Positions 24,988 to 44,690 of a stretch of DNA of 44,690 bases are shown here, in pieces (positions within the stretch are counted from its first letter, which is position 1; each line of letters opens with the position of its first letter). The stretch spans positions 1 to 44,690 of the forward strand of contig JAGQTU010000027.1 in NCBI GenBank assembly GCA_020438865.1, written 5' to 3'. The stretch comes from Mycobacterium sp. (GTDB lineage Bacteria; Actinomycetota; Actinomycetes; Mycobacteriales; Mycobacteriaceae). Under the pieces are notes generated by a model. That model worked only from the letters and a program-made list of their open reading frames with translations, was not told where the DNA came from and ran no database searches. Made by a program: the position numbers and the translations under genes.

Positions 24988-25779
24988 CTAAAGAACCGAT
25001 TTGATCTGCTTGGCGATGAATCTGGTCGTCCGCTTGGCCGATACCCGGGCGAAGAGGTCGAGCAGCCGTGCGTCGGTGCCGACCAGAACACGAAAGCTGT
25101 CCTTGGCGATGCCTTCGACGATCTTCTCGCCGGCCTCCTCCGGGGTCCTGGTCGGCGCCCTGCGTCCACCCGAATCGAGCATCTCGACCCCGGAGTTCCC
25201 GGTGAGGTTGGTGCTGACATTGCCCGGAAACAGTGTCACCACATGGACATTGGTGTCGGAGAGCTCCGCATACAGTCCCTCGCTGAACTGCTTGACCGCA
25301 CCCTTGCTGGCGCCGTAGAACGTCTGGCTGGCGAAGGGCACCAGCGCCGCCAGACTGGACATGTTGGTCAGGTTCGCCTCGGGGCGCTGCAGCAGGATCG
25401 GAAGAAAGACCCGGCACGCGTTGACCGTCCCCCAGAAGTTCACCTCCATGATTCGGGCGAGCTCATCGGCGGACAGGTCGATGAACGGCGCGAACCGGTG
25501 GATGACGCCGGCGATGTTGACCAACCCGTCGATCTGGCCGTGCACACTGGTCACCTGGTCGGGCAAGGCCGCCACGGCATCACGGTCGGTCACGTTCACG
25601 ATGTGCGTCGAGACCGTCGCGTGAGCGGCCCGCGCCAACTCAGCGGTCTCGGTCAGCCCCGCCGCGTCGAGGTCGACGGCGGCGACCCGCGCCCCCCTAC
25701 GCGCCAGCCCGAGCACGACCTGGCGGCCCATGCCGTTGCCACCCCCGGTGACGACGAAGACCCTGTCGGCGATCCGCAA
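24988..25779 (-). CDS. Short-chain dehydrogenase/reductase with TTG start
   Basis: 263 residues. TTG at 25779 has AGGAAGG eight bases upstream and no better start lies near it. The cofactor motif is TGGGNGMG (11-18), with VDLD after strand two favouring NAD(H). The usual NNAG is changed to VNIAG (87-91), and the active site is Ser141-142 with Tyr155 and Lys159 (YGASK). The C-terminal stretch is basic (KRTTRFIAKQIKSVL), possibly a membrane-surface contact. A cytosolic alcohol/ketone oxidoreductase is likely. Its end is 11 bases from the convergent gene at 23900. The gap to the upstream small protein gene is only 43 bases, so it may be the distal gene of the KshA transcript. Confidence 0.9.
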   Translation of the reverse strand: MRIADRVFVVTGGGNGMGRQVVLGLARRGARVAAVDLDAAGLTETAELARAAHATVSTHIVNVTDRDAVAALPDQVTSVHGQIDGLVNIAGVIHRFAPFIDLSADELARIMEVNFWGTVNACRVFLPILLQRPEANLTNMSSLAALVPFASQTFYGASKGAVKQFSEGLYAELSDTNVHVVTLFPGNVSTNLTGNSGVEMLDSGGRRAPTRTPEEAGEKIVEGIAKDSFRVLVGTDARLLDLFARVSAKRTTRFIAKQIKSVL

Positions 25780-25822: not shown

Positions 25823-26098
25823 CTAATCGACGGGATTCTCACCCAGGATCGGCAGATCGCCTCTGCCGGCAGCGTCCTCGAGCGAGGCGCGCAACTCCGA
25901 GCAGATCAGTAACGATCCGCGACCGGATCGCCGCACCGCCTCCCGGCGCTGGACACAGGCCGCCAGCGCCGCGGCATCCCACTGCACGCTGGTCTGGGCC
26001 CAGCTGCTCTTTCGGGCCTCGACGGTCGCGCCACAGCGGCGACAGTCGATCGGCACCAGCGGTGCGTCCAGCAGTCGGTCGTCGGTACGGACGGTCAT
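25823..26098 (-). CDS. Small four-cysteine protein coupled to KshA (copy 1)
   Basis: 91 residues. ATG at 26098 overlaps the stop of the KshA-like gene (ATGA), so it is translationally coupled. I recognise no family. A CRRC pair (Cys19, Cys22) is followed by the stretch ARKSSWAQTSVQWDA, then Cys48 (AACVQRR) and Cys66 (LLICSELR). The paralogue at 32548 keeps all four cysteines and the KSSWAQTSVQWDA core exactly. A zinc knuckle or a simple iron-sulfur site are both possible. Coupling to a Rieske oxygenase suggests an accessory, assembly or electron-transfer role (inference). It is far too short and has the wrong pattern for a plant-type or Rieske ferredoxin. Confidence 0.82.
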   Translation of the reverse strand: MTVRTDDRLLDAPLVPIDCRRCGATVEARKSSWAQTSVQWDAAALAACVQRREAVRRSGRGSLLICSELRASLEDAAGRGDLPILGENPVD

Positions 26099-27243
26099 CA
26101 AGCGGTACCGGCCGCCGCGGCGCGGCGGGCGATGTTGTCCTCGACCTGCTTCTGCCAAGCCGCACGCGGGCGGGTCACGTCGATCTCGTACTCGAACCGG
26201 TCGACCATCTCGGGTGTGACGGCCGCGGCGTCGACGTAGAACTGTTCGTACCAGCGCCGCAACTGGTAGACCGGGCCATCCTCTTCGCAGAGCAGCGGGT
26301 TTTCGATACGCGTCTTGTTTCGCCAGATCGCGACGTCCTGTTCGAATCCCATCTTGACGAAGTCCCCGAGTGCGACGGCCGCCTGCATCGCCGCCTCCTG
26401 CGGAAGGTTCTCGGACTTCTTGACGATGATGCCGTACTGCAGCACAAAGGAATTGGCGTCGATCGGGTAGTGGCAGTTGAGCAGTACCGTCTGCTGGTCT
26501 TCGTGTTCGTAGTGATAGGTAAGGTCGTCGATCATGAACGACGGGCCCCAGTAGGACGCGAGCGACGTCGTGCCGAGCAGAACCGGCCCGCCTTCGGGAC
26601 TGGGAAGGTCGGGGCGGCTGCCACTGCTCATGTACTGCGTCGCGACGTGGCCCTCGAAGACGTTCTTGAAGTGGGTCGGCATCGATCCGTGCACATAGAA
26701 GAAGTGCGCCATGTCGACGACATTGTCGACGATCTCGCGACAGTTGGTGTTGACCACCGTGGTGTACCAGTGCCAGTCGGTCCATTCGTCGCTGTCGGCG
26801 CCGGCGATGCGCGGGATGGTCACCCCGTCCGGCGGGGGATTGCGTTCCGGGTCGTTCCAGACGAACAGCATGCCGTCCTGCTCCAGCGTCGACCACGTCG
26901 CGGTACGCGCCAGCTTGGGGACGCGGCGGCTGTAGGGAATCTGTTTGCAACGGCCGTCGCCGCCCCACCGCCAGTCATGGAACGGGCAGGCGATCTCGTT
27001 GCCCTTGACCTCGCCCTGCGACAGATCGCCCCCCATGTGCCGGCAGTAGCCGTCCAGCACGTTGAGTCTGCCGTCCTGGCTGCGGAAGACCACCAGGCGC
27101 TGGCCGAAGGCGTTGACGGTGTGCGGCTTCCCGTCGCCGAGTTCCCTGGTCAGACCTAGGCAGTGCCATCCGCGCGCGAATCTGGTCGGTGCGGTACCCG
27201 CCTCGATCTGGCGTACCTCGTCGGTGTCTGACTGCGGGGTCAT
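26098..27243 (-). CDS. kshA: Rieske oxygenase, 3-ketosteroid 9alpha-hydroxylase oxygenase component KshA-like (copy 1)
   Basis: 381 residues. The Rieske 2Fe-2S motif is CRHMGGDL...CPFHDW (Cys67, His69, Cys86, His89). The mononuclear iron site is NVVDMAHFFYVH (Asn174, Asp177, His180, His185) with Asp303 (FEQDVAIW). Long identical runs with KshA, such as FARGWHCLG, SDEWTDW, AHFFYVHG and VYQLRRWYEQFYVD, make the subfamily firm. KshA hydroxylates C9 of 3-ketosteroids, which with delta-1 dehydrogenation opens ring B. Electrons normally come from KshB, not encoded here. The gene diverges from a KstD-type flavoprotein 100 bases away, the natural partner. The protein is clearly paralogous to the one at 32832 (about four fifths identical by eye). 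Confidence 0.94.
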   Translation of the reverse strand: MTPQSDTDEVRQIEAGTAPTRFARGWHCLGLTRELGDGKPHTVNAFGQRLVVFRSQDGRLNVLDGYCRHMGGDLSQGEVKGNEIACPFHDWRWGGDGRCKQIPYSRRVPKLARTATWSTLEQDGMLFVWNDPERNPPPDGVTIPRIAGADSDEWTDWHWYTTVVNTNCREIVDNVVDMAHFFYVHGSMPTHFKNVFEGHVATQYMSSGSRPDLPSPEGGPVLLGTTSLASYWGPSFMIDDLTYHYEHEDQQTVLLNCHYPIDANSFVLQYGIIVKKSENLPQEAAMQAAVALGDFVKMGFEQDVAIWRNKTRIENPLLCEEDGPVYQLRRWYEQFYVDAAAVTPEMVDRFEYEIDVTRPRAAWQKQVEDNIARRAAAAGTA

Positions 27244-27343: not shown

Positions 27344-29053
27344 GTGACGGCCCCGAGTGCGACGATTCCCGCCGGATTGACGATCGGCGACACGACCGTC
27401 GACCTGCTCGTGGTGGGTTCGGGGACGGGTCTGGCGGCAGCGCTGGCCGCCCACGAGTGCGGTCTGTCGGTTCTCGTCGTGGAGAAATCCTCGTTCGTGG
27501 GCGGTTCGACAGCCCGGTCCGGAGGAGCGCTCTGGCTGCCGGCCAGCCCAATCCTCGACGAGGCCGGCGCCGGGGACACGGCCCAGAAGGCGGCCACCTA
27601 CCTGGACTCCGCCGTCGCGGGCAGCGCACCGGCACAACGCTCAGCCGGTTTCCTGGCCAACGTGCGCGGGACCGTCGAGATGCTCCGGCGCACGACTCCC
27701 ATGCGGCTGTTCTGGGCGCGGGACTACTCCGACTATCACTCCGAGAAACCCGGTGGCACGGCGTCCGGGCGCACGTGTGAGTGCCGGCCGTTCAACTCGT
27801 CGGTGCTCGGCGACTATCGGACCCGCCTTCGTCCCGGTGTGCTTGAAGTCAAGATCCCGATGCCGACGACGGGCGCGGACTATCGCTGGCTGAACCTGAT
27901 GTCGCGGGTGCCCCGAAAGGGGTTGCCCCTTATCGTGAAGCGGCTCACCCAGGGTGTCGGCGGCCTGCTGGTCGGGCGCCGCTACGTCGCCGGGGGCCAG
28001 GCACTGGCCGCCGGTCTCTTCGCCGGGGTGTTGCGCGCCGGCATCCCGATCTGGACCGAAACCTCGCTGCGGCAACTGACGACCGGCGACGGCCGGGTCA
28101 CGGGCGCGGTCGTCACGCATCACGGCCGGGACGTGACGCTGACCGCACGCCGCGGCGTGGTGCTCGCTGCCGGGGGCTTCGACCACAGCATGGCCATGCG
28201 GTGGAAGTTCCAGTCCGAGTCGCTGGGCGAGAACCTCAGCCTTGGAGCACGGAGCAATACCGGTGACGCCATCGTGATCGCGCAGGAGGCCGGCGCATCG
28301 ATCGACCTCATGGAGCAGGCCTGGTGGTTTCCCGCTGTAGCACCCTTGCCGGGCGCCGACCCGCTGGTGATGCTGGCCGAGCGCTCGCTGCCCGGTTCGT
28401 TGATCGTCGACCAGACCGGTCGCCGATTCGTCAACGAGTCGACCGACTACATGTCGTTCGGACAGCGGGTTCTCGAGCTCGATCGTTCGGACAGCCCGGT
28501 GACGTCGATGTGGATCGTGTTCGACCAGAAGTACCGCAACAGCTATGTGTTCGCCGCCGACCTGTTCCCCCGGATGGCGATTCCCCAGAGCTGGTATGAG
28601 GCGGGGATCGCCCACCGGTCGGCCGACCTCGCCGAACTCGGCAGGAAGATGGGTGTGCCGGAGTTGCCGTTCCTGCACACGATGTCCGAGTTCAACGAGA
28701 TGGCAAGCGGCGGTAGCGATTCCGACTTTGGGCGCGGCAACAGTGCCTACGACCGGTATTACGGCGACCCGACCATCACGCCGAACCCGAACCTGCGTCC
28801 GCTCGATCACGGCCCGTTCTACGCGGTCAAGATGGTGCTCAGCGATCTGGGTACTTGTGGTGGACTGCGTGCCGACGACCGGGCTCGCGTGCTCCGCGAG
28901 GACGGCACGCCGATCGAGGGTCTCTATGCGATCGGCAACACCGCGGCGAACGCTTTCGGCGCCAGCTACCCCGGGGCCGGTGCGACGATCGCGCAGGGAC
29001 TCGTGTTCGGTTACGTCGCCGCGCGCAATGCCGCGCAACGCGGATCGGGCTAG
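27344..29053 (+). CDS. 3-Ketosteroid dehydrogenase (KstD)-type flavoprotein, copy 1
   Basis: 569 residues from GTG 27344, chosen because the FAD motif GSGTGL (25-30) then falls close to the N-terminus as in the family and a leaderless promoter precedes it. Then GGSTARSGGALWLP marks the substrate/FAD loop of KstD enzymes. The C-terminal YPGAGATIAQGLVFGY (Tyr542) matches the conserved motif holding a catalytic tyrosine and the glycine that anchors the C3 carbonyl. These enzymes remove hydrogens from ring A (delta-1) or between C4 and C5 of 3-ketosteroids. The divergent KshA partner supports a steroid-like substrate. Which of the two regiochemistries applies is uncertain. The end overlaps the PadR gene by four bases. 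Confidence 0.88.
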   Translation: MTAPSATIPAGLTIGDTTVDLLVVGSGTGLAAALAAHECGLSVLVVEKSSFVGGSTARSGGALWLPASPILDEAGAGDTAQKAATYLDSAVAGSAPAQRSAGFLANVRGTVEMLRRTTPMRLFWARDYSDYHSEKPGGTASGRTCECRPFNSSVLGDYRTRLRPGVLEVKIPMPTTGADYRWLNLMSRVPRKGLPLIVKRLTQGVGGLLVGRRYVAGGQALAAGLFAGVLRAGIPIWTETSLRQLTTGDGRVTGAVVTHHGRDVTLTARRGVVLAAGGFDHSMAMRWKFQSESLGENLSLGARSNTGDAIVIAQEAGASIDLMEQAWWFPAVAPLPGADPLVMLAERSLPGSLIVDQTGRRFVNESTDYMSFGQRVLELDRSDSPVTSMWIVFDQKYRNSYVFAADLFPRMAIPQSWYEAGIAHRSADLAELGRKMGVPELPFLHTMSEFNEMASGGSDSDFGRGNSAYDRYYGDPTITPNPNLRPLDHGPFYAVKMVLSDLGTCGGLRADDRARVLREDGTPIEGLYAIGNTAANAFGASYPGAGATIAQGLVFGYVAARNAAQRGSG

Positions 29054-29718
29054 TCGCCTTCTTCCGTTTTGACGCGCTGCTCGACCTCGTACCAGTACTC
29101 GCGTTCGGGCCACACGACGCCCTTGTCCCCACTCTGGCGCGCTCGGGCGAATTCCGCCTCCGCCTCGTCGAGATCCTTCATGAGTTCCAGGGCCAGTTCA
29201 CGTTCGGAGGCGTAGTAGCGTTCGGCCCAATTCAACGCCACCTTCGCGTAGGCCCACACCGGCTGCTCCTCGGTCGCACGGGCCTCCACCGCGGCGTTGC
29301 GCTGCATTCGATCGCAGTAGGCGACATGTTCCTGGAGCAGCTCGCGAAGCCGCTGGGGTTCGGTCAGGTGGCCGAAGATGACCCGCAGCAGCACGCTGTG
29401 CTTCAGCGTCGGGGGGTCGTACGGAGCGTTGGCGGTCCAGGCAGAGACGGCATCCATTCCCAGCGGCGTGATCCGATACAGCCGACGGCTGCGGGCAGCC
29501 CCGTCGCTGTCCATCCGGGAGGTGACCAGCCCGAGCTGCTCCATCTTCTTGAGCTCCGAGTAGATCTGGCTGTACGCCGGGCTCTGATAGAAGAACCGCA
29601 GGACCCAGTTCGACCACTTCTTGATGTCGTACCCGGACAGTTCGTCACCACCGGACAACATGCCGAGCAGCGCCCAACCTGTCGACGCGAGGTTCGGCCT
29701 GGCCGTGGTCCCTTCCAC
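29050..29718 (-). CDS. PadR-family transcriptional regulator
   Basis: 222 residues, GTG start with no ribosome-binding site but a leaderless-type -10 seven bases upstream. The PadR winged helix lies at about 12-95, with the signatures ALLGML, LSGYDIKK, YSELKKMEQLGLV and RRLYRITPLGMDAV. A long C-terminal helical domain (about 100-222, rich in Glu/Arg/Ala with AERYYASERELALELMKDLDEAE) provides dimerisation. PadR repressors respond to phenolic or other small ligands. The convergent KstD-type gene and the divergent thioesterase are its nearest targets. The AT-containing stretch GGTTATCAATCAGG (29727-29740) near its own start could be an operator. Confidence 0.9.
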   Translation of the reverse strand: MEGTTARPNLASTGWALLGMLSGGDELSGYDIKKWSNWVLRFFYQSPAYSQIYSELKKMEQLGLVTSRMDSDGAARSRRLYRITPLGMDAVSAWTANAPYDPPTLKHSVLLRVIFGHLTEPQRLRELLQEHVAYCDRMQRNAAVEARATEEQPVWAYAKVALNWAERYYASERELALELMKDLDEAEAEFARARQSGDKGVVWPEREYWYEVEQRVKTEEGD

Positions 29719-31305: not shown

Positions 31306-32433
31306 TCAGATTCCGGGCCCGGAGGTCGCCCCCGGAAGCGGATGGCGGGCAAGGGTTGCGGTCGAAGTCCCGCACACCTGGCAGAACGCGGCCCCGGTGA
31401 GAATCTCGGCGCCGCAGTGCGCACATACCTGATCGGAATCCGGCACCCGAAGCAGCCGGACCCCCTCACCGAGCGCCGCCCCCGCCTCGGCGAGCAGGGC
31501 CGCGTGCAGAGTCAGGCGCGAGGCGATGAGCCCGGAAGTCGCCAGCACGAGAGCGACCAGGGTGGTCAGCACGATGCCGCGCGCACCGTAGGGACTCAGC
31601 AGCGTTGCGGCCAATTCGTAGAGCGCGATCAGGGCCAGCGCCGTGAGCGCGCCCGACACCGCGTTCCCGGCCGGGGCGCGCAGCGGGATCACGACCAAGG
31701 CCCCGGCGGTCGCGAACAGGATCGGCTGCAGGAAGCCGAGCGTGAGCGCGATGAACGCGGCGTGCGCGGCGTCCCCGGTGGCGACCTGTGTGAACGCGCC
31801 GTGCTGGATCACGACGCTGACCCCGAGCGATACGGCGGCACCACTGAGCGAACTTGCCACGACCGCATCCACCGGATGCCGAAATCGTTCGCGCGCGGTC
31901 ACCAGTACCGGCGCCAGGACCACCGCAACGAGCGTGACAACGGGAACCAGGATCGCGAGCCGCAGGATCTCAGCCACCGACGGCGGATGGGGATGCAGGG
32001 CGCCGAGTAGCACCGGGGCATTGAACCGGTTTTGCAGCAGTCCGACCCCGATACCGAGCGCAAGGGAAAGCAGGAATCCGATCCCGACGACCGTCGCCGG
32101 TTCGTCATGCCACACCGCGTGGTCGTGGATGTAGACCAGAACGATCGCGGGAAGGGCCACCGCCGGTACCACCAGCGCTATCGACAACACCCCGAACGCG
32201 GCGGCGACCAGCGCCACCAGCAGCGCCAGCGCGATGACGTTGCGGTACACGTGATGCCGCCCGGCGGACAGGTGCGGCAGCAGGGTGCTCAGCACCGCCA
32301 ATGCTCGCACGGGCTCGTCCGGATAGGCGGCGAAGTGCCGAGTGCGGTCGGTTCCCGGGTGCAGCGGTGTACCGCATCGTGCGCAGAACCGGGCGGCGGG
32401 CGAATGCGGGGTCGAGCACTTCGGGCAATCCAT
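31306..32433 (-). CDS. Polytopic membrane protein with zinc ribbons at both ends
   Basis: 375 residues, ATG with GGGGGA four bases upstream. The N-terminus starts CPKC...CARC (Cys3, 6, 17, 20) and the C-terminus ends CAHC...CQVC (Cys337, 340, 351, 354), two zinc-ribbon pairs of the same spacing. Between them are about eight hydrophobic segments from residue 64 to 325, including VIALALLVALVAAAFGVL, TVVGIGFLLSLALGIGVGLL and VSGALTALALIALYELAATL. An even number of helices would leave both ribbons in the cytoplasm. Function unknown. It precedes the anchored protein at 30488, probably as a two-gene operon. Similar double-ribbon proteins are sometimes annotated only as hypothetical in actinobacteria. 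Confidence 0.82.
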   Translation of the reverse strand: MDCPKCSTPHSPAARFCARCGTPLHPGTDRTRHFAAYPDEPVRALAVLSTLLPHLSAGRHHVYRNVIALALLVALVAAAFGVLSIALVVPAVALPAIVLVYIHDHAVWHDEPATVVGIGFLLSLALGIGVGLLQNRFNAPVLLGALHPHPPSVAEILRLAILVPVVTLVAVVLAPVLVTARERFRHPVDAVVASSLSGAAVSLGVSVVIQHGAFTQVATGDAAHAAFIALTLGFLQPILFATAGALVVIPLRAPAGNAVSGALTALALIALYELAATLLSPYGARGIVLTTLVALVLATSGLIASRLTLHAALLAEAGAALGEGVRLLRVPDSDQVCAHCGAEILTGAAFCQVCGTSTATLARHPLPGATSGPGI

Positions 32434-32547: not shown

Positions 32548-32835
32548 TCAGGAGTCGTTCGGATCGACCTCGTCGACGATGGGCACCTCGCCCCGGCGGG
32601 CGGCGTCCTCGATCGCCGCCCGCAGGTCCGAGCAGACCAGGAACAGCCCGTTGTCATGTCCGGCCAGGGCCGTCGCCGCGCGCCGTTGGACGCATGCCGC
32701 CATGGCCGTCGCATCCCACTGCACGCTGGTCTGGGCCCAGCTGCTCTTGCGGACCTGGACCGTCGCCTCGCAGCGGCGACAGCGCACGGGCACCGGTGCG
32801 GCGTCGAGCAGCCGGTTGTCGGGGTGGACCGTCAT
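32548..32835 (-). CDS. Small four-cysteine protein coupled to KshA (copy 2)
   Basis: 95 residues. ATG at 32835 overlaps the KshA stop (ATGA), as in copy 1. It has CRRC (Cys19, Cys22), the invariant core KSSWAQTSVQWDA, Cys48 (AACVQRR) and Cys68 (FLVCSDLR), so the spacing of the last cysteine differs by two from copy 1. Start, overlap and cysteine order are all conserved between copies. No signal peptide. The acidic tail (EVPIVDEVDPNDS) is not conserved. Retention of both the gene and its overlap after duplication suggests that it works with the oxygenase (inference). Metal type and role unknown. Confidence 0.82.
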   Translation of the reverse strand: MTVHPDNRLLDAAPVPVRCRRCEATVQVRKSSWAQTSVQWDATAMAACVQRRAATALAGHDNGLFLVCSDLRAAIEDAARRGEVPIVDEVDPNDS

Positions 32836-33971
32836 CCGCCCGCCCAGGCCTGGACGCCGCGGGCGACGTTGTCCTCGACCTCGGCCTGCCAGGCCGCCCG
32901 CGGGCGGGTGACGTCGATCTCGAACTCGAACCGGTCCACCATGTCCGGCGTGACGTCGGCGACGTCGACGTAGAACTGCTCATACCAGCGGCGCAATTGG
33001 TAGACCGGGCCGTCCTCCTCGCACAGCAGCGGATTGTCGATGCGGGTCTTGTTCTTCCAGATCAACACGTCCTGCTCGAAACCCAGTTTGACGAAGTCGC
33101 CGAGGCCGACCGCCGCCTGCATCGCGGCGTCGGCGGGCAGGTTCGGCGACTTCTTCACGATGATCCCGTATTGCAGCACAAAGGAATTCGCATCGACCGG
33201 GTAGTGGCAGTTGAGCAGCACGGTGTGCTGGTCCTCGTGCTCGTAGTGATAGGTCAGGTCGTCGATCATGAACGACGGTCCCCAGTAGGACGCCACCGAG
33301 GTGTTGCCGAGCAGCTTCGGCACCCCGGCCGGTTGCGGGAAGTCGGCTCGGGTGACGCCGTTCATGTACTGGGTGGCGACATGCCCCTCGAAGATGTTCT
33401 TGAAATAGGTCGGCATCGCCCCGTGCACGTAAAAGAAATGGGCCATGTCGACGACGTTGTCGATGATCTCCCGGCAGTTGGTGTGCACCAGCGTGGTGTA
33501 CCAATGCCAGTCGGTCCACTCGTCGCTGTTCGCACCATCGATCCGCGGAATCACCACGTCCTCGGGCGGCGGATTGCGCTCCGGATCGTTCCACACGAAC
33601 AGCAGGCCGTCCTGCTCCATGGTCGGCCAGGCCGCCGTCCGGGCCGCCTTGGGCACCCGGCGGCTGTACGGGACGGCCTTGCAGCGCCCGTCCCCACCCC
33701 AGCGCCAGTCGTGGAACGGGCAGGCGATCTCGTCACCCTTCACCGTGCCCTGCGACAGATCGCCGCCCATGTGCCTGCAGTAGCCGTCCAGCACGTTCAG
33801 TCGGCCGTCCGCACCGCGGAACACCACCAGCTTCTGGCCGAACGCGTTGCGAGTGTGCGGGCTTCCGTCACCGAGGTCGCGGGTCAGCCCGAGGCAGTGC
33901 CAGCCACGCGCGAACCGGATCGGCACGGCCCCGGTCTCGATCTGACGTACCTCGTCCGGGTCGGAGTTCAT
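32832..33971 (-). CDS. kshA: Rieske oxygenase, KshA-like (copy 2)
   Basis: 379 residues from ATG 33971, with GGAGG eight bases upstream; an ATG nine codons earlier lacks family residues. The Rieske site is Cys65, His67, Cys84, His87; the iron site is Asn172, Asp175, His178, His183 and Asp301 (FEQDVLIW). By eye about four in five residues match the copy at 26098, with differences clustered at about 205-225 (VTRADFPQPAGVPKLL against SGSRPDLPSPEGGPVLL), which lies in the variable loop region of KshA likely to shape the substrate entrance. Substrate preference may therefore differ between the copies. Divergent from a KstD-type gene, repeating the arrangement of copy 1. No reductase partner nearby. 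Confidence 0.94.
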   Translation of the reverse strand: MNSDPDEVRQIETGAVPIRFARGWHCLGLTRDLGDGSPHTRNAFGQKLVVFRGADGRLNVLDGYCRHMGGDLSQGTVKGDEIACPFHDWRWGGDGRCKAVPYSRRVPKAARTAAWPTMEQDGLLFVWNDPERNPPPEDVVIPRIDGANSDEWTDWHWYTTLVHTNCREIIDNVVDMAHFFYVHGAMPTYFKNIFEGHVATQYMNGVTRADFPQPAGVPKLLGNTSVASYWGPSFMIDDLTYHYEHEDQHTVLLNCHYPVDANSFVLQYGIIVKKSPNLPADAAMQAAVGLGDFVKLGFEQDVLIWKNKTRIDNPLLCEEDGPVYQLRRWYEQFYVDVADVTPDMVDRFEFEIDVTRPRAAWQAEVEDNVARGVQAWAGG

Positions 33972-34075
33972 GGCGCCCACCTCCATCGGTCGCATCATTG
34001 CCCAGTCTCGCCCTCACCGGCCGGGACATCAATAGAGTCGTAACGGCGATCAACCGGCCCGAGCTTGGAGAGCAC

Positions 34076-35623
34076 ATGCCTGATTTCGACGAGAACGTCG
34101 ACGTCATCGTCGCCGGCTCCGGCGGCGGCATCACCGGCGCCTACACTGCTGCCCGCGAGGGGCTCTCGGTGGCCCTGGTGGAGGCCACCGACAAGTTCGG
34201 CGGCACTACGGCCTACTCGGGCGGTGGCGGCATGTGGTTCCCGTGCAATCCGGTGCTGCGCCGCGCGGGCAGTGACGACACCATCGAGGCCGCGCTGAAC
34301 TACTTTCACGCCGTCGTGGGCGATCGGACCCCGCGCGAACTGCAGGACACCTACGTGCGCGGGGGCGCCGAACTGATCGAGTACCTGGAGGCCGACGACA
34401 ACTTCACGTTCACGGTGCTGCCGTGGCCGGACTACTTCGGCAAGGCCCCGGACGCCCGCACCGACGGGATGCGCCACATCGTCGCGGTCCCGATCCGCGA
34501 CGAGAAGCTCGGTCCCTACGCCGGCCAGGTGCGCGGCCCGCTCGACAACGACTGGCTCGGCACCCCGGCGCCCAGCAAGCTGTTCGGCGGCCGGGCGCTG
34601 ATCGGGCGATTCCTCGCCGCGCTCAGCGGATTCAAAGCCGCGAAGCTGTACCGCAACGCCGAGCTGGTGGACCTGATCACCGACGGCGGGCGGGTGGTGG
34701 GCGCGCTGGTGCGCCGGGACGGGCGTGAGGTGCGTATCGGTGCGGAGCGTGGCGTGCTGCTGGCCGCGGGCGGCTTCGAGCACAACACCGCGCTGCGGCA
34801 GGCCTACGGCGTGCCGGGCGAGGCGAACGACAGCATGGGCTGCCCGGGTAACACCGGCGCGGCCCTGCGGGCGGCGCTGCGGGCCGGTGCGGCCGTGGAC
34901 CTGATGGATCAGGCGTGGTGGTCACCCGGGCTGACCCATCCGGACGGCCGGTCGGCCTTCGCGTTGTGGTTCACCGGCGGCATCTTCGTCAACCAGGCGG
35001 GCCGGCGCTTCGTCAACGAGTCGGCCGCCTACGACCGGATCGGCCGCGCGATCATCGCCGAGATGGCGGCGGGCCGGCTGACCACTCCGTTCTGGATGAT
35101 CTACGACGACCGCGGCGGCGAGGCTCCCCCGGTGCAGGCGACGAACGTGTCGATGGTCGAGACCGAGCGCTACCGTGACGCCGGATTATGGCGCACCGCA
35201 GCCACATTGGCGGAACTGGCCATACTGATCGGCGTTCCGGCCGACGCCCTCGAAGCCACGGTCACCCGCTACAACGACATGGTGGCCGGCGGCGTCGACA
35301 GCGACTTCGGCCGCGGCGACGAGGCCTACGACCGCGCCTTCTCGGAGGGCAAGTCGCCGATGGTGGCGATCACCGAGCCGCCGTTCCACGGCGCCGCCTT
35401 CGGGCTGTCCGATCTGGGCACCAAGGGCGGCCTGCGCACCGACACCCACGCGCGGGTGCTCGACGAGAACGGCGAACCGATACCCGGGCTGTATGCGGCG
35501 GGCAACACGATGGCCGCGGTCAGCGGCACCGCCTACCCGGGTGGCGGGAATCCGATCGGCGCCTCGATGTTGTTCAGCCACCGCGCCGCGCTGCACATGG
35601 CGGGCCGGCTCAGCCCTGCTTGA
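34076..35623 (+). CDS. KstD-type flavoprotein, copy 2 (ketosteroid dehydrogenase family)
   Basis: 515 residues from ATG 34076, which has GGAG five bases upstream. FAD motif GSGGGITG (14-21), then FGGTTAYSGGGGMWFP, the KstD-type loop with the tyrosine retained (the 27344 copy has AR in place of AY). The C-terminal AYPGGGNPIGASMLFSHRA (Tyr487) is the variant that in my reading of the family is closer to the delta-4(5alpha)-dehydrogenases than YPGxGATI. The two flavoproteins share the family fold but are much less alike than the two KshA copies. The oppositely transcribed KshA gene lies 104 bases away. The end overlaps the secreted-protein gene by 14 bases. Regiochemistry uncertain. Confidence 0.87.
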   Translation: MPDFDENVDVIVAGSGGGITGAYTAAREGLSVALVEATDKFGGTTAYSGGGGMWFPCNPVLRRAGSDDTIEAALNYFHAVVGDRTPRELQDTYVRGGAELIEYLEADDNFTFTVLPWPDYFGKAPDARTDGMRHIVAVPIRDEKLGPYAGQVRGPLDNDWLGTPAPSKLFGGRALIGRFLAALSGFKAAKLYRNAELVDLITDGGRVVGALVRRDGREVRIGAERGVLLAAGGFEHNTALRQAYGVPGEANDSMGCPGNTGAALRAALRAGAAVDLMDQAWWSPGLTHPDGRSAFALWFTGGIFVNQAGRRFVNESAAYDRIGRAIIAEMAAGRLTTPFWMIYDDRGGEAPPVQATNVSMVETERYRDAGLWRTAATLAELAILIGVPADALEATVTRYNDMVAGGVDSDFGRGDEAYDRAFSEGKSPMVAITEPPFHGAAFGLSDLGTKGGLRTDTHARVLDENGEPIPGLYAAGNTMAAVSGTAYPGGGNPIGASMLFSHRAALHMAGRLSPA

Positions 35624-36154: not shown

Positions 36155-37759
36155 TCATGTCGTGGGCAGCAGGTCTTTCCACGACCGCTGGCCCCCCGGG
36201 GTCACCAGATCGGTCTGACGGAACACGTTGCCGTCCGGGGTCGCGTACTGACCCGTCGTCGGATCGTAGGTGGCGACCGCCACCGACGGCCCACCGGCGC
36301 CGGTGGTGAACGCGCTGGGCGCCACCGTGCCGCCCTGGTCGACGGGTGCCAGGTCCGGAACCGACTGCGGGGCAGGCGGTTGCGGCGCACCTGGGGGCGG
36401 CGGCCCCTGGCCCGCCGCCGGGGCCACCGGCGCGGCCGGGGCCGGGCCGGCCGGTCTCGGGGTGCCCTGCAGCGGACCGTAAATGTTGTCGTTCAACGTC
36501 ACCCGGTCGTCCGGCGGGATGCCCTGCGACACCAGGTTCGGATCGAACGGGTACGGGCCGGTCGCGTGCTGACGCATCGCCAACGGCTCGAACGGTGCTC
36601 CGCTCTCGCAGATTTCGACCGTAGGCGCGCGCTTGCCGGGCTGGCCCTGGCACGGATAGTTACGCGCGCCACGGACCGCGATCGGTGAATCCTGCGGCAG
36701 CTTGCAGTACAGCCCGTCGGGGGTGTCGATGTCCGACAGGTCGGCCGGCGAACGCCACTGCGACGGCGGCAGGAACCCGACCGTGCACGCGGGTGGATCG
36801 CCGATGCCGACGGTGAAATCGCCCTTGGCCATCCCGGTCGGGTTGTTCATCGGGCCGATCGACTGTATCGAGGCGATGAAGGGCGGCAGCAACACCAGCA
36901 GTTGCTCGATCGATGCGTGGTACGTCACGGCCACCTGTCCCACCGTGGTGAGGTTGGCCAGCAGCACCGGCAGCGTCGGCTTGACCTGATTCAGCAGGGC
37001 GGTCGCCTCACCGGCCGCGCCGGGCCCGTTGGCCAGGATGGCCCGCCATTGCGGATCATCGGCATTGAGCTGTCCGGTGATGCCGGCCAGGCTTCGCGCC
37101 CAGGTCCGGATCGCGTCGGTGGAGGCCAGCTGACCGTCCAGCAGGGGACGGCTGTCCTCGATCAGCGTGCGGGACTGATCGGCCGCACCCTTGAAGTCGG
37201 CGGACAGCCGCGACGCCGACTCCGACAACGTGCTGAGGTTGTCCGCGGTGCCGTTGAGGGCCTTGAAGGTCTCGTTGAGCAGGTCGGGGATCCGCTCCTT
37301 CGGAATGCTCTTCAGCAGGGCGTGCACCCGGTCGAGCATCGGACCCACGGCCTGGGGAACGGTGGTGTTCTTCGCCGAGATCACCGAGCCGTTCTCCAGA
37401 TAGGGCCCGGAGTCGGTGCGGGGCACCAGGTCCACGTACTGCTCGCCGACCGCCGACACGGACAGCACCCGGGCCTGTAGGTCGGCGGGCACCTTCGGCG
37501 AGCTGGCCAGCGACAGGGTGGCCTCCGCGCCGCTCCTGGTCGGGCGCACCTCGGTGACCTTGCCCAGCTGCACGCCCCGGTAGGTGACGTTCGAGAACCG
37601 GTAGAGCCCACCGGTTCTCGGCAACTCCAGCTTGACCGTCATCCGGCCGATGCCGAGCAGCGTCGGGACCTGCATGTAGGTGACGACCATGACCGCGATA
37701 CCGATGATCGAGGCGATGGTGAAGATGATCAGCTGGTTGCGCACGAATCGGGTCAGCAT
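36155..37759 (-). CDS. mceF: MceF
   Basis: 534 residues. N-terminal membrane helix (about 9-30) followed by the MCE/MlaD domain (about 38-115: LYRFSNVTYRGVQLGKVTEVRP, VSAVGEQYVDLVP), then a long helical region to about 315. A proline/alanine-rich tail (about 430-475, GPAPAAPVAP, GPPPPGAPQPPAP) is characteristic of the F subunit. Its ATG shares one base with the mceE stop (TGATG). Mce subunits assemble as a periplasm-spanning hexamer that passes lipids to YrbE permeases; steroid uptake is known for Mce4. Which of the numbered mce loci this corresponds to cannot be told from the sequence alone. Confidence 0.92.
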   Translation of the reverse strand: MLTRFVRNQLIIFTIASIIGIAVMVVTYMQVPTLLGIGRMTVKLELPRTGGLYRFSNVTYRGVQLGKVTEVRPTRSGAEATLSLASSPKVPADLQARVLSVSAVGEQYVDLVPRTDSGPYLENGSVISAKNTTVPQAVGPMLDRVHALLKSIPKERIPDLLNETFKALNGTADNLSTLSESASRLSADFKGAADQSRTLIEDSRPLLDGQLASTDAIRTWARSLAGITGQLNADDPQWRAILANGPGAAGEATALLNQVKPTLPVLLANLTTVGQVAVTYHASIEQLLVLLPPFIASIQSIGPMNNPTGMAKGDFTVGIGDPPACTVGFLPPSQWRSPADLSDIDTPDGLYCKLPQDSPIAVRGARNYPCQGQPGKRAPTVEICESGAPFEPLAMRQHATGPYPFDPNLVSQGIPPDDRVTLNDNIYGPLQGTPRPAGPAPAAPVAPAAGQGPPPPGAPQPPAPQSVPDLAPVDQGGTVAPSAFTTGAGGPSVAVATYDPTTGQYATPDGNVFRQTDLVTPGGQRSWKDLLPTT

Positions 37760-39081
37760 CAGTTACCGCCTCCGTCCTGCGGCAGGGTGGCGGGATCCGG
37801 GCCGGGCAGCGGCGGACCCGGCAACAGCCCGGGGGGTGGCGGGCCGGGCAGCGGTCCGGGACCCATCCCCGCTGCCGGCTGATGATCGGCCGTCAGCGCG
37901 GCCTGGTTGGTGGGCGCGGCACCGGGAGCCGGATTCAGCAACGGCGGGATGTCGGCCACCTGCGCGGGAACGGAACTGAAGGGCGCGTGCAGCGGATCGT
38001 AGGTGTAGGTCGCCCAGAACGGATCACCGGGCGCCGGAACGAGTTTGGCGTTCTCGTCACCCCACGTGGTGCCGAGGAAAAGCGAGTGCTTCAGCCGGGG
38101 CACGGTGAAGTCGAAGATGATGAACTGGTTGAGATAGTCGCCCCGGATCGCGCGGTCGACCGTGCCCTGGGTGTACGGGAAGGTCGGGAAGTAGGCCAGC
38201 GCAGTGTCGAGCTTGGGTCCGACGTCGGCGAGCGCCTTGAGCGTGGGCTCCAGGTTCTGCAGGTTGCGAACCAGGTCCGCCTGGGTATCGTTGACCAGCC
38301 CGGTTGCCAGGTTGGAGAAGTCGCGGAACTTCGTCAGCGCGGTGACGATCCGCGGTCGCTCGTTGATCAGGACGTCCAGGGCGGGCGGAATGCGGTTGAG
38401 CGCGTTGGTCAGGACCTCGCGCTGACCGGCGAAGGTACCGGCCAGGTTGTTCAGCGATGTCACCGCGGCGTTGATGCTGTCGCGCTGCGCGGCGAGCAGA
38501 CCGACGAAGTCGTTGAGCCGGGTGAGCAGGTCGCGGATCTTGTCCTCGCGTCCGCCGAGCGCCGCGTTGAACTCCTTGACGATGTCTCCGATCTGGCCCA
38601 GCCCCCCGCCGTTGACCACCACCGACAGCGCCGAAAGGGTCTGCTCGGTGGACGGATACGTCGACGACCGGTTCAGTCCGAGCGTCGCACCGGGCTGCAG
38701 CACACCGCTGGGCGCCTGGCCCAGCGGCGGGTTGAGGGCAAGATGCATCGAGCCCAGCAGGCTGGTCTGCCCCACCGTCGCGACCGCGTTGGCCGGGATC
38801 ACCACGCCGGGCTTCACCGAGACGTCGACGTTGGCGTGCCAATCGGTCACGGTCATCTTGCCGACGCTGCCCACCACCACATCACCGACGAGAACGGGTG
38901 AGTTCGACTCCAGTTGACCGATGTTGGCGAGCTCGACGTGGTAGGTCTTCGACCCGTCCTCGTGCCCGACCGTACCGGGCAGCGGCAGCGAGTTGAGGCC
39001 GCCGAAGGCACAGCCGGTGGTGCTGACCGCGACACACGTCGCGATCACCGCGACGCGGCGCATCGAATCACTACCGATCAT
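37759..39081 (-). CDS. mceE: MceE lipoprotein
   Basis: 440 residues from ATG 39081, which overlaps the mceD stop by four bases (ATGA). An N-terminal signal sequence ends in STTGC (Cys24), a lipoprotein-type cysteine; the -3 residue is Thr rather than the usual Leu, so lipidation is likely but not certain. The MCE domain spans about 40-120 (YHVELANIGQLESNSPVLVGDVVVG). The helical region follows, with a proline-rich C-terminus (GPGPLPGPPPPGLLPGP). The E subunit is the lipoprotein in every standard mce operon. Expected on the outer face of the cytoplasmic membrane within the Mce complex. Confidence 0.92.
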   Translation of the reverse strand: MIGSDSMRRVAVIATCVAVSTTGCAFGGLNSLPLPGTVGHEDGSKTYHVELANIGQLESNSPVLVGDVVVGSVGKMTVTDWHANVDVSVKPGVVIPANAVATVGQTSLLGSMHLALNPPLGQAPSGVLQPGATLGLNRSSTYPSTEQTLSALSVVVNGGGLGQIGDIVKEFNAALGGREDKIRDLLTRLNDFVGLLAAQRDSINAAVTSLNNLAGTFAGQREVLTNALNRIPPALDVLINERPRIVTALTKFRDFSNLATGLVNDTQADLVRNLQNLEPTLKALADVGPKLDTALAYFPTFPYTQGTVDRAIRGDYLNQFIIFDFTVPRLKHSLFLGTTWGDENAKLVPAPGDPFWATYTYDPLHAPFSSVPAQVADIPPLLNPAPGAAPTNQAALTADHQPAAGMGPGPLPGPPPPGLLPGPPLPGPDPATLPQDGGGN

Positions 39082-40544
39082 GACCCCGGTGTCCCTTCGG
39101 CGGGCGCCGGCGCGGGCGGCGGCGCCGATTCGGCGGGCAGCAGCATGCCCGGCAGCGACGCCGGCGGCGGTGCCGCCGGACCCGGCACACCCGGCGGGAT
39201 CGGCGCACCGTTGAACAGCGCGGGCGAGGGGTCGGCGGGCAGGCCGTTGGGTGCGTACGCGCCGTGGAAGTTGGGCGGCGGCCCGTTCCACCCGGCCGGC
39301 GGCGGCACGTCACCGTTGAGTCCGGTGTAGGCCGACACCGCGGGCGGAATCTCTGCGGGCTCGTCGGCTTTAGAACCACCGGGAGCCAACGCCGGATCCG
39401 AGTAGATGAGGTTGCTCGGGCTCGGTGACTTGCCCAGGTAGAGGTTCAGCGGAATCGGCAGGTAGTTGAAGTTCAGCAGCCGAAGTGCCGGGCCCAGATA
39501 CTGGGCGCACAGCTTCGCGGTCTCCGCCGAGGTGGCGTTCTCGATCGCACCGATGGCCGTGCAGATCACGCTGATCGGGTTCGAGAAGTTGGCCAGCGCG
39601 AAACCGCCCAACCCGCTCTGGGTGTCGGGATCGTAGATGTTGTACGAGTTGGCGATCGCGTTCGGCGCCACGTGCAGCAGGTTCTTCACCACCATCTGGT
39701 TGTCGGCCAGATTCTTCGTGATGCTGCTCAGGTGTTGCAGTTGCTCGGCGGTCTGGTTTCGGCTGCCGGCGATGAACCGCTGTACGTCGACGACGGCGCT
39801 GGACAGGTTGGTCAGCGCCGCATCCAGGTCGGACCGGCTGCCGTCGACCACGCTGGTGAGGCTGGCCAGGCGGTCCTGGAACTGGACGATCTGGACATTG
39901 CTGTCCCGCAGTGCCGTGACGAAGATCTGCAGGTTCTTGATGGTGTCGACGAGGTTGCCGCTGTTGTCGGCGAGCACCCGGCTGACCCCGGAAAGCTGCG
40001 CGATGGTGTCGTGCAACTTCTGGCCGTTGCCGTCCAGCGCGTTGGCGGCCGAGTCGATGAACCGGCCCACCGCGGTCTTGGAGGCGTCGTCCTTGGGGCC
40101 GAGATCGGTTGCCAGCCGCATTAACTGGGTCTTGACCTGGTCCCACTCGACGGGCACGGCGGTGCGGTCCAGTCCGATCACCGCACCGTCGGACATCTTC
40201 GGACCGCTGTCCTCGTACGGCGGGGTGAGTTGGACGTACCGGGCCCCCACCAGGTTCTGGGAAACGATGATCGCCTGGGCGTTGGCCGGTATCGGCACGT
40301 CGCGGTCGACGGCCAGGCTGAACTTGGTCTTGGTGCCCTGGGCCTGGATCGACTTGATGGTACCGACCTTCACCCCGGCCACCCGTACCTCGTCGCCGGG
40401 ATAGATGGCGGTCGCGCTGGTGAAGTAGGCGGTGATGCTCTTCGGCTTGAAGAACGCCTGGCGCACCAGCAAGCCGATGCCGCCCGCGACCAGCAGGGCC
40501 AGGATCACCGCAATGGCGATGGTGAGCGGCTTGCGGCGGGTCAT
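39078..40544 (-). CDS. mceD: MceD
   Basis: 488 residues from ATG 40544, chosen because it forms the ATGA overlap with mceC; the open frame extends four codons further upstream. A basic start (MTRRK) and membrane helix (about 7-28) precede the MCE domain (about 35-115: YPGDEVRVAGVKVGTIKSI, IVSQNLVGARYVQL). A helical region runs to about 300. The C-terminus is long and proline-rich (PAAPPPASLP, PPPAPAPAEG), typical of D subunits. Part of the periplasmic lipid-transfer assembly. Confidence 0.92.
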   Translation of the reverse strand: MTRRKPLTIAIAVILALLVAGGIGLLVRQAFFKPKSITAYFTSATAIYPGDEVRVAGVKVGTIKSIQAQGTKTKFSLAVDRDVPIPANAQAIIVSQNLVGARYVQLTPPYEDSGPKMSDGAVIGLDRTAVPVEWDQVKTQLMRLATDLGPKDDASKTAVGRFIDSAANALDGNGQKLHDTIAQLSGVSRVLADNSGNLVDTIKNLQIFVTALRDSNVQIVQFQDRLASLTSVVDGSRSDLDAALTNLSSAVVDVQRFIAGSRNQTAEQLQHLSSITKNLADNQMVVKNLLHVAPNAIANSYNIYDPDTQSGLGGFALANFSNPISVICTAIGAIENATSAETAKLCAQYLGPALRLLNFNYLPIPLNLYLGKSPSPSNLIYSDPALAPGGSKADEPAEIPPAVSAYTGLNGDVPPPAGWNGPPPNFHGAYAPNGLPADPSPALFNGAPIPPGVPGPAAPPPASLPGMLLPAESAPPPAPAPAEGTPGS

Positions 40545-41638
40545 GGCTGCCCCCAACGCTCGTACGGCTGCGGTATCCCGTTGTACGGGAACGGAATCTC
40601 GGCGCGCGGCCCGGCATTGTCCGGCGGCTGGCCGGCGTCGATACCGCGCCGGAAGCCGAGTGCGTAGTCGAAGAAGGGCTGCGCGATCTGGCCTGGGCTC
40701 AGGTTCGCCACGAAGGCGTTGTAGAGGAACCCGCTGTTGACCGCCTCTGCCTGGGTGATCTGGTATTTGGCCAGGCCCTTCATCGCCGCGGTGATGTTGT
40801 CGTTGTTCCGCTCCAGCATCGCGGTGACCGCGTTGAGCTTCTCCAGGGCGGGCGCGAGTTCCTTCTCGTTGTCGGCCACGATCCCGGAGAGCTGCTTGGA
40901 CAGGGCGGAGGTATTGGCGAGCAGGTTGACGATGGCGTAGCGGCGCTCCTGGAGTACACCGATCAGGTCGTTGGCGTTGAGCAGCAGCGAGTTCACCTGT
41001 TGGCTGCGCTCCCCCAGGATGCTGGTGACGTTCGACGCGCTCTTGAGCAGACTGCCGAGAGATTCGTTGCGCTCGTTGAGCATTCGCGACAGCCGGCTCA
41101 CCCCGTCGAACGTCGGCCCGAGTTGCGGGGAGATGCGGTCGATGGTGTCCGACAGCGTGTTCAGCGACTGGTTCAACTGGGCCGTGTCGGTGCCGGCGGT
41201 GTTGGCGGTGAACTCGCTGAGCGAATCGGTCAGCGAATACGGGGCGCCGGTGCGGGTCACCGGGATCACCTCGGCGGGTTTCAAAGTCCCTTTGCCGTCG
41301 GACTCCAGGGTCAGCACCCGCTGGCCCAGCAGGGTTCCGGTGCGGATGTGTGCGGTGGTGTCCGAGCCGAGACGGACGCTGCCCCTGACCATGAACGTCA
41401 CCAGCGCCTTGCCGCGCTTCAGCGCCACATCGGTGACGGTGCCGACCTTGACGCCCGACACCTTGACGTCGTTACCCGGCACGAGGCCGCCCGCCTCGGT
41501 GAACAGGGCCTGATGCCTGATCGAAGTCGCCCAGGTGAGGATCCGTTCGGGCTGCAGGCCGACGGCGATGACCAGGATGATCAGCACCACGCCGAGGAAG
41601 CCCGACCGGATGAGCGAGGAACCACGGTATTTCAGCAT
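40541..41638 (-). CDS. mceC: MceC
   Basis: 365 residues from ATG 41638, sharing one base with the mceB stop (TGATG). Membrane helix about 13-29 (FLGVVLIILVIAVGLQP), MCE domain about 38-115 (GLVPGNDVKVSGVKVGTVTDV, IRTGTLLGQRVLTLES), then a coiled-coil-forming helical region (about 150-300). No long proline tail, unlike D-F. Its stop overlaps mceD. Part of the same lipid-import complex. Confidence 0.92.
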   Translation of the reverse strand: MLKYRGSSLIRSGFLGVVLIILVIAVGLQPERILTWATSIRHQALFTEAGGLVPGNDVKVSGVKVGTVTDVALKRGKALVTFMVRGSVRLGSDTTAHIRTGTLLGQRVLTLESDGKGTLKPAEVIPVTRTGAPYSLTDSLSEFTANTAGTDTAQLNQSLNTLSDTIDRISPQLGPTFDGVSRLSRMLNERNESLGSLLKSASNVTSILGERSQQVNSLLLNANDLIGVLQERRYAIVNLLANTSALSKQLSGIVADNEKELAPALEKLNAVTAMLERNNDNITAAMKGLAKYQITQAEAVNSGFLYNAFVANLSPGQIAQPFFDYALGFRRGIDAGQPPDNAGPRAEIPFPYNGIPQPYERWGQP

Positions 41639-42663
41639 CAGGGCTCCGCGCACCTTCCCGTGTGTTGGACGATCCAGGGGAAGTACGCGGTGCGGCCCTG
41701 CAGATCGGTGACGCGGAAGGACAGGCCGCACAGGTACTGGTTGAGGAAGCTGCCGTAGGAGCCGAGCCGAACCAGCTTGCGGTAGTTCTTGGGCGCCTTC
41801 TGGATGGTGATGTCCAGAAGTTCCTTGTCGGAGTCCAGGATTGGGGCCAGTCGGCCGAGTTGGTCGATGGTTCCGGCCAGCGGGGCACGCGCCTGCCCGA
41901 GCAGATCGGTCAGCGAGGCGGTCCCGTTGTCCAGGGCGGTGACCGCTTCGCCGATCGGGTCCTTGTCCGAGGACAGCCCGGTGATGAGCCTGTTCAGCTT
42001 GTCCACGGCGCCGGCGAACTTGTCGCCGTCCTTGGAGATTGTCGCCACGACGGTGTTCAGGTTGTCGATCAGCTGCTGTACGGTCTGGCCGTTGTCGGCC
42101 AGTGAGTTCGAGAACGCCGAGGTCTTGGCGAACAATGACTCCAGGTTCGCGTCCTGGCCCTGCAGAACCTGGATCAGCGAGTTGGTCAGCGCGTTGACCT
42201 CCTGCGGCCGCAGGCCCTGCACGACGGGTTTGAGCCCGCCCAGCAGCAGGTCGAGATCGAGCGCCGGCTCGGTTCGGTCGAGCGGGATCTGCGAGCCGGG
42301 GGGCGCGATCTTGCCGGAGCCGGGACCGTCGACGAGTTCGAGGTAGCGGTCGCCGACCAGGTTGAGGTAGCGCACCACGGCCTTGGTCCCGGACGTGAGC
42401 ACTATGTTGCGGTCGGCGTCGAAGTCGACGATCACCTTGTTGTCCGGTTGTAGCGCAACATCTTTCACGGTGCCGACCCGGACACCCGCCACCCGAACCG
42501 AGTCGCCCGACTTCAGGCTGGAGGCGTCCCGGAAGACGGCCGAGTAGGTGCCGCCCGAGCCGGACCGGTACTGGCCGAAGATGGCGAACAGCGCCACGGT
42601 GAGCAGCACCATCACCACCGCGAAGCTACCTATCTTGAGGATCGTCTTCGACAGGCCGCTCAT
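41638..42663 (-). CDS. mceB: MceB
   Basis: 341 residues from ATG 42663, overlapping the mceA stop (ATGA). Membrane helix about 11-30, MCE domain about 38-120 (SLKSGDSVRVAGVRVGTVKDV, VVRYLNLVGDRYLELVDG), helical region with repeated leucine/aspartate patterns (about 150-290) and a C-terminal conserved YFPWIVQHTGRC. Length is typical of MceB. Second of six subunits in order. Confidence 0.92.
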   Translation of the reverse strand: MSGLSKTILKIGSFAVVMVLLTVALFAIFGQYRSGSGGTYSAVFRDASSLKSGDSVRVAGVRVGTVKDVALQPDNKVIVDFDADRNIVLTSGTKAVVRYLNLVGDRYLELVDGPGSGKIAPPGSQIPLDRTEPALDLDLLLGGLKPVVQGLRPQEVNALTNSLIQVLQGQDANLESLFAKTSAFSNSLADNGQTVQQLIDNLNTVVATISKDGDKFAGAVDKLNRLITGLSSDKDPIGEAVTALDNGTASLTDLLGQARAPLAGTIDQLGRLAPILDSDKELLDITIQKAPKNYRKLVRLGSYGSFLNQYLCGLSFRVTDLQGRTAYFPWIVQHTGRCAEP

Positions 42664-43835: not shown

Positions 43836-43845
43836 CGAGGTCGTC

Positions 43846-44690
43846 CTATCCGGAGAGGTTGAAGTTGCCGTTGGAGCCGTAGATGGCCAGGGAGACCAGC
43901 AGGGTGACCGAGACGACCACGATCAGCGAGGTCCGTACCGCGTTACCCACCGCAACCCCGACCCCCGACGGGCCGCCGGTGGCGAAATAACCGAAATAGG
44001 TGTGGATCAACAGGATCGTGATCGCCATCAACACCGCCTGCAGAAAGCTCCACAGCAAGTCGATCGGATTCAAAAAGGTGTTGAAGTAATGGTCATACAG
44101 CCCACCGGACTGACCGAAGAGCACCACCGTGGTGAACTGCGAGGCCACAAACGACAGGATCACCGCGATCGAATACAACGGGGTGATCGCCACCATCCCC
44201 GCCACAATCCGGGTACTGACCAAATACTCGACCGGGCGGATCCCCATCGATTCCAGGGCGTCGATCTCCTCATTGATCCGCATCGCCCCCAACTGGGCGG
44301 TGACCCCGGCCCCGAACGTGGCCGCCAACCCGATCCCGGCCACCACCGGCGCACTGATGCGCACATTGATGAACGCCGCCAAAAACCCCGTCAACGCCTC
44401 GATGCCGATATTGCCCAACGAGCTATAACCCTGCACCGCCAACGTGCCCCCCGCGGCCAGCGTCAAAAACCCGACGATGACCACCGTGCCCCCGATCATC
44501 GCCAACGTCCCCGCCCCCATCGAGATCTCGGCGATCAACCGGATGATCTCGCGGCGGTAATGCACCGCCGCGTGCGGGGTGCCCCCCAACGCCCGGCCGT
44601 AGAACAGGGTGTGATCGCCAATCCGCGACAACCAGCCCACCGGCCGATCAATACCACGCGCCAGGCGCGGATAGGCCCCACGCAGAATCG
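43846..44690 (-). CDS. yrbEB: YrbEB (MlaE-type Mce permease), 5' end off window
   Basis: 281 residues are visible, from the right edge to a TAG stop. A GTG at 44640 is not the start: the frame stays open upstream and encodes LRGAYPRLARGIDRPVGWLSR, like the N-terminus of YrbEB proteins, so the gene continues beyond 44690. The core has six or so membrane segments with the MlaE signatures GYSSLGNIGIEALTGF, FGAGVTAQLGAMRINEEIDA and SGGLYDHYFNTFL, and ends in GNFNLSG, the usual YrbEB terminus. It is the permease partner of YrbEA, which should lie immediately to the right. Together with the Mce hexamer and an MceG-type ATPase it imports lipids. Confidence 0.93.
   Translation of the reverse strand, partial: ILRGAYPRLARGIDRPVGWLSRIGDHTLFYGRALGGTPHAAVHYRREIIRLIAEISMGAGTLAMIGGTVVIVGFLTLAAGGTLAVQGYSSLGNIGIEALTGFLAAFINVRISAPVVAGIGLAATFGAGVTAQLGAMRINEEIDALESMGIRPVEYLVSTRIVAGMVAITPLYSIAVILSFVASQFTTVVLFGQSGGLYDHYFNTFLNPIDLLWSFLQAVLMAITILLIHTYFGYFATGGPSGVGVAVGNAVRTSLIVVVSVTLLVSLAIYGSNGNFNLSG

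Follow-up and report, generated by a model that had tools for sequence, protein, structure and literature searches.

A stretch of 44,690 nucleotides (nt) of Mycobacterium sp. DNA (assembly GCA_020438865.1, contig JAGQTU010000027.1), hereafter the window, carries a short open reading frame on the minus strand next to a gene for KshA, the oxygenase of 3-ketosteroid 9alpha-hydroxylase (KSH). Its translation is a four-cysteine (Cys4) protein with Cys19, Cys22, Cys48 and Cys66 in 91 residues. The small gene begins within the stop codon of the KshA gene, and one nucleotide (position 26098) is common to both genes (TGATG). A second copy of the small gene adjoins a second KshA gene (Table 1), and a six-frame search of the window gave two occurrences of the motif KSSWAQTSVQWDA (25973-26011 and 32710-32748). 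The fourth Cys of copy 2 is residue 68, because this copy has two extra residues there. A preliminary description of this DNA had stated that the four Cys and the core motif are kept in both copies and that the gene overlaps KshA; translation and motif search agreed with the former, and the shared nucleotide with the latter.

The guanine-cytosine content by codon position was gene-like in both copies (0.71/0.57/0.80 and 0.73/0.53/0.91). The ratio of nonsynonymous to synonymous substitution rates (dN/dS) of the small gene was 0.16-0.30 in the nine pairs computed, which indicates purifying selection. These results confirmed that the open reading frame is a genuine gene under selection and not a chance frame. 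A third copy was found in the same genome on contig C24, again adjoining another KshA gene. Two weak own-genome matches were dropped: L005 had no KshA match, and L004 was matched by neither query.

The neighbours of the small gene were then counted across its relatives. For 141 of 158 members, the same strand carried a KshA gene no more than 400 nt away, upstream of the small gene in 136 and downstream in 5. A gene for a KstD-family flavoenzyme lay directly upstream, with no adjacent KshA, in another 12 members. Taken together, 153/158 adjoined a KshA or KstD gene and 5/158 had neither within 400 nt. The 158 are the non-identical members (differing over the 50 residues counted from the CxxC motif onwards) that were found by small-protein searches only. 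Loci reached via KshA searches or plasmid KshA (L045-L074, L120-L145 and L253 onwards) were left out, as were L116, L118, L119, L004, L005, L090, L101 and L108, and three loci among the 158 had less than 1.2 kb of flank on one side. With KshA-selected loci included, the counts were 152 with KshA, 12 with KstD and 5 with neither, of 169. The linked flavoenzyme matched KstD-type models of NCBIfam in the examples scanned, and one of them matched PDB entry 7p18 (3-oxosteroid 1-dehydrogenase) with an E-value of 4e-121.

Among the five members without a close partner, L105 had a KstD gene 451 nt away and a KshA gene at 4.2 kb, L106 and L181 had a KstD gene less than 4 kb away, and for L200 and L247 neither gene was present in the stretch fetched. 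The small genes at L106 (6043-6312) and L181 (4033-4308) encode minimal forms and adjoin genes for an Oxidored_FMN (old yellow enzyme-like) protein and an alpha/beta hydrolase, which were identified by Pfam at L106 and by clustering at L181. At L201, L202, L213, L221 and L233 the small gene lies upstream of KshA, 122-126 nt apart.

A KshB-like reductase gene also adjoined the small gene in 17 of the 158 members; in the set of 169 there were 19 such reductase genes, every one of them downstream. Two of these reductases were checked with Pfam and contained FAD, NAD and Fer2 domains. In its annotation, the Tsukamurella plasmid NZ_LR134448.1 shows the order kstD, Rieske protein, hypothetical protein (the family member) and ferredoxin-NADP reductase. 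With the furthest upstream start taken, the small gene could overlap the stop codon of KshA, by 1 or 4 nt, in 35 of 42 loci.

The co-occurrence of the two genes was also quantified. In 61 related genomes, the small protein was found in 36 and KshA in 37; the sole mismatch, G047, proved to have the small protein once its KshA region was profile-searched. All 57 small-protein matches in these genomes had KshA just upstream. KshA matches above 270 bits occurred in 15 of 396 phylum genomes, the same 15 that carried the small family; a further 10 had weaker KshA_C matches only (142 bits or less). This survey scored the best 9 first-look candidates in most genomes, so divergent members could escape. 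A 16th match, G370 (L090, L101), was rejected because it consisted of partial zinc-ribbon look-alikes without VQW. At the family level, among the matches listed, the small family occurred in 95 of the 121 genomes and in 22 of the 31 genera, and a genome could have as many as 6 copies; 80 further places were fetched from these matches in list order, some being skipped. We mapped the presence of the small gene on a FastTree tree of 183 KshA proteins (153 with the gene). The trait required 8 changes versus a shuffled mean of 28.3, and none of 500 shuffles was as low as 8. The small gene is therefore inherited with KshA lineages.

The small proteins form one sequence family. Forty different proteins from the first searches shared the four Cys, one Val, T-x-V-Q-W and one Gly without variation. 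In the alignment of 169 non-identical members (hidden Markov model score of 25 bits or more, invariance counted by column), C19, C22, W40, C48 and C66 never varied. A text pattern of Cys4 plus Trp fitted 157/158 members of the set found by small-protein searches, and both window copies have the CxxC, the Trp of the VQW motif and the third and fourth Cys. Three size forms were seen. The short form, mostly 89-103 residues, accompanies window-type KshA, and the minimal form has 67-85 residues in those read. The long form (147-162 residues, 12 aligned) accompanies canonical KshA and has an N-terminal extension of roughly 60 residues. The extension contains a His/Asp-rich stretch and a PDVDxLARSMLxLHG-like motif, which 6 of the 12 show exactly and the other 6 as variants. 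In long forms such as L003:1312-1779 this motif appears helix-like, and the variable His/Asp-rich run might be metal-binding or serve in docking.

No credible match to the small family was found in Pfam, NCBIfam, PHROGs or PDB sequences; the preliminary description had called the protein unrecognised. The best family hint came from zinc ribbons, with sub-threshold scores for 5 of the 16 members compared (lowest E 0.0056); wherever a curated Pfam zinc-ribbon cut-off was shown, the scores lay below it. Matches to Herpes_U59, CGLA_M, TrpC and XdhB were far below the cut-offs and were taken as chance. No relative was found in the viral contigs searched. An AlphaFold2 (AF2) model of a Nocardia query replaced an earlier one, with a predicted local distance difference test (pLDDT) score of 67.9 versus 61, and neither is confident. 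The model suggests a fold of a CxxC beta-hairpin plus two helices. The likeness to Pfam zinc ribbons of the Zn_ribbon_RPAB4 kind lies in the CxxC knuckle on the predicted beta-hairpin and in the sub-threshold matches. In contrast to zinc ribbons, the small family has a single CxxC, its other Cys stand singly about 11-26 residues apart on predicted helices, and no score above a Pfam cut-off was seen. The family genes that were seen with annotation are called hypothetical, and no function for the family is described in the titles, abstract openings and excerpts seen of open-licence PMC papers.

The long form may already have a gene number in M. tuberculosis. The genome of the window also has a canonical KshA, which scored 744 bits to the M. 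tuberculosis KshA structure 2zyl. No KshA 100% identical to 2zyl was found in the 396 genomes searched; the best was 95% identical (L285), and beside it stands a long form with the same Cys4/TxVQW core as the window copies. By number, Rv3527 directly follows kshA (Rv3526). Judged by this position and numbering, and not by the Rv3527 sequence, the long form probably corresponds to Rv3527. Long forms differ from the window copies, which lack the extra 60 or so residues with the PDVDxLARSMLxLHG-like motif and the His/Asp-rich stretch. Rv3527 is listed as a hypothetical protein in the proven-essential set in macrophages and mice, and both Rv3526 and Rv3527 are listed as not found in leprosy bacteria (PMC6429209). 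It is also among the hypoxia-repressed, reaeration-induced genes (PMC2905415), and the excerpt of PMC3207917 tabulates a transcript beside Rv3527 and nothing more.

Table 1. The two small Cys4 genes of the window and neighbouring genes
Feature	Position	Strand	Basis and remarks
Small Cys4 protein, copy 1	25823..26098	-	91 aa; motif, own-genome search, dN/dS, 1-nt KshA overlap
KshA (3-ketosteroid 9alpha-hydroxylase oxygenase), copy 1	26098..27243	-	381 aa; KshA_C + Rieske; PDB 4qdf_B 624 bits
Small Cys4 protein, copy 2	32548..32835	-	95 aa; motif; 4-nt overlap with KshA copy 2
KshA, copy 2	32832..33998	-	83% identical to copy 1; Rieske + KshA_C
FAD_binding_2 flavoprotein, probably KstD-like	33998..35623	+	Pfam; divergent from KshA copy 2
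PadR-like regulator, between both KshA units	29050..29718	-	Pfam
Short-chain dehydrogenase, just downstream of copy 1	24988..25779	-	Pfam

The surroundings of the two copies look like a steroid cluster of the C-19+ type, as described in PMC5962712 and PMC5270728. The cluster-type genes in the window are the two KshA, KstD-like, acyl-CoA-dehydrogenase-type, extradiol-dioxygenase-type and PadR genes. KshA copy 1 (P0002) was above the Pfam cut-offs for both KshA_C (304.1 bits) and Rieske (83.2 bits). None of the 11 own-genome KshB matches lay on the contig of the window (C198), and the best one was on contig C312 (58% identity), consistent with the earlier statement that no reductase is encoded nearby. 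The companion statement about ferredoxin held for the ten neighbouring genes scanned with Pfam, none of which encodes one; ferredoxins were not searched for beyond these. Between the KshA units, a 375-residue protein (31306-32433, minus strand) has DZR and Zn_Ribbon_1 matches close to its two ends. Beside the steroid cluster, about seven open reading frames at 36155-44640 (minus strand) have starts that look Mce/YrbE-transport-like by eye only.

KSH is described as the entry point to the breakdown of steroid rings, a proposed tuberculosis drug target, an industrial catalyst and a two-component enzyme (PMC4064121). Both domains of KshA are present in the oxygenase of the window, and the small family accompanies KshA in genomes, whereas in the review excerpts KshAB is a system of two components in which a third gene has no part. 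The small family is a new component of a known system and not a new kind of system. The best explanation of the neighbourhoods is that its usual partner is the Rieske oxygenase KshA, with KstD as the partner in one minority branch.

We tentatively favour the small Cys4 protein being a subunit that binds metal and serves in docking or stabilisation at the KstD/KshA ring-opening step, because KshA and KstD share substrate, sequential position and redox chemistry. The four Cys would hold one metal, more likely zinc than an iron-sulphur cluster, and the protein would dock on either KshA or KstD, where it would preserve enzyme activity without being catalytic itself. Alternatively, it might bring KshB together with the two enzymes, which act in sequence. 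The gene adjacency, the co-occurrence, the invariant Cys4 and Trp, the overlaps, the reductase neighbours, the KstD branch and the AF2 secondary structure were all counted for such a subunit. The fragility of KSH on purification also suggests it: M. smegmatis KshA suffers a large activity loss, and R. rhodochrous KshA was active only if purified together with KshB (PMC4064121).

Several observations weigh against this docking or stabilising subunit. Gene adjacency is not proof of binding, and no open frame in the fetched loci joined the small protein to KshA, KstD or KshB. The fold model is of low confidence, and Foldseek and VIA-align gave no usable match to it, although a known fold may still apply. 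The excerpts report the purification of active KshA and KshB and mention no third protein (PMC4064121, PMC6153880), and KSH can be reconstituted from these two (PMC6153880); the small protein is therefore not strictly required in vitro. The small gene was also missing beside 19 of 77 KshA genes above 280 bits in the 61 genomes, including two KshA close to that of the window (L260 on G021:C28, 689 bits, and L263 on G024:C73, 763 bits), and beside KshA at L120, L121, L125, L145, L278 and L279 from other sets. Likewise it was absent from 5 of 7 plasmid KshA loci (Sphingobium, Burkholderia, Cupriavidus, Prescottella and R. erythropolis), the sample being 7 of 14 plasmid records with KshA. The genomes of L260 and L263 each carry another KshA with the small gene and are natural test cases.

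Two other roles in the KshA reaction rank behind the docking subunit, first a metallocentre factor and then an electron carrier. The small protein might deliver iron to KshA or insert and repair its Rieske cluster, with the His/Asp-rich N-terminus seen in the 12 aligned long forms buffering Fe(II). The overlap of the small gene with the KshA gene and the labile KSH activity (PMC4064121) are in line with this role, but short forms lack the His/Asp-rich tail, steroids are hydroxylated by E. coli cells in which M. smegmatis KshA is expressed (PMC4064121), and one branch of the family serves KstD. A cluster-loading role covers only part of the family, since KstD is a flavoenzyme without iron; loading of the Rieske cluster or iron alone is therefore the less likely function, and we consider this role unlikely. 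KstD takes two electrons from the steroid, and KshA spends two on O2. This balance makes an electron carrier the boldest proposal, in which an iron-sulphur or rubredoxin-like iron site would pass electrons from KshB to KshA or from KstD to KshA. Consistently, the family is linked to both redox enzymes of the step, oxygenase and reductase genes both adjoin it in the 17 loci above, its Cys4 is never swapped for His or Asp in 169 members, and heterologously expressed KstD functioned chiefly when electron acceptors were supplied (PMC10672877). Rieske oxygenase systems of Batie classes II and III include a ferredoxin as third component (PMC4064121), and like such ferredoxins the small protein has four Cys and is encoded with an oxygenase and sometimes a reductase. 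In contrast to these ferredoxins, it gave no Fer2 or Rieske domain match in Pfam or NCBIfam, nor any ferredoxin or rubredoxin family match above cut-off. Rubredoxin has two CxxC knuckles, and the alignments contain only one CxxC. Moreover, KshA and KshB are already active in vitro with no ferredoxin in the excerpts, and both KshB-like reductases tested have a 2Fe-2S domain (Fer2) of their own. Overall, an electron carrier is improbable.

A 1982 Nocardia study reportedly found a second iron-sulphur protein as third component of the KSH system, to which the review excerpts assign no gene. It is rather doubtful that the small Cys4 protein, as an iron-sulphur or rubredoxin-like protein, is this missing component and couples KstD to KshA in vivo with electron recycling. 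Least probable is a redox- or zinc-responsive regulator that does not itself touch the enzymes. Regulators exist among small Cys4 proteins in general, a PadR gene is present in the window, and genes that look like IclR or PadR are found repeatedly near KstD-linked members (by eye except for the PadR of the window). However, 153 of the 158 members adjoin the gene of a KSH-step enzyme, KshA or KstD, and no DNA-binding family match was obtained.

These results support one part of the preliminary description and not the other. A dedicated small Cys4 partner of KshA agrees with the 141 of 158 members beside KshA. The profile searches and neighbourhood survey that it had proposed found this adjacency and no credible known family; a family located chiefly apart from Rieske oxygenases, or assigned with confidence to an unrelated known family, would have spoken against it, and neither was seen. 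What the results do not support in this form is an accessory exclusive to KshA for electron input or cluster assembly: 12 members lie behind KstD, 19 of 77 strong KshA genes are without the small gene, and KshA and KshB are active without a third protein in the excerpts. Cluster assembly is weakened by the iron-free KstD.

A frequent third KSH gene would affect both the reconstitution and the engineering of the enzyme, and it could bear on the loss of KSH activity during purification. The family also gives a testable role for the hypothetical protein Rv3527 (PMC6429209). It is a gene candidate for the iron-sulphur protein of Nocardia; if the small protein were indeed an electron carrier, it would be that second iron-sulphur protein of 1982, and ring opening would be electron-recycling. 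The small Cys4 protein may be an overlooked helper of the well-studied steroid ring-opening reaction in mycobacteria and their relatives.
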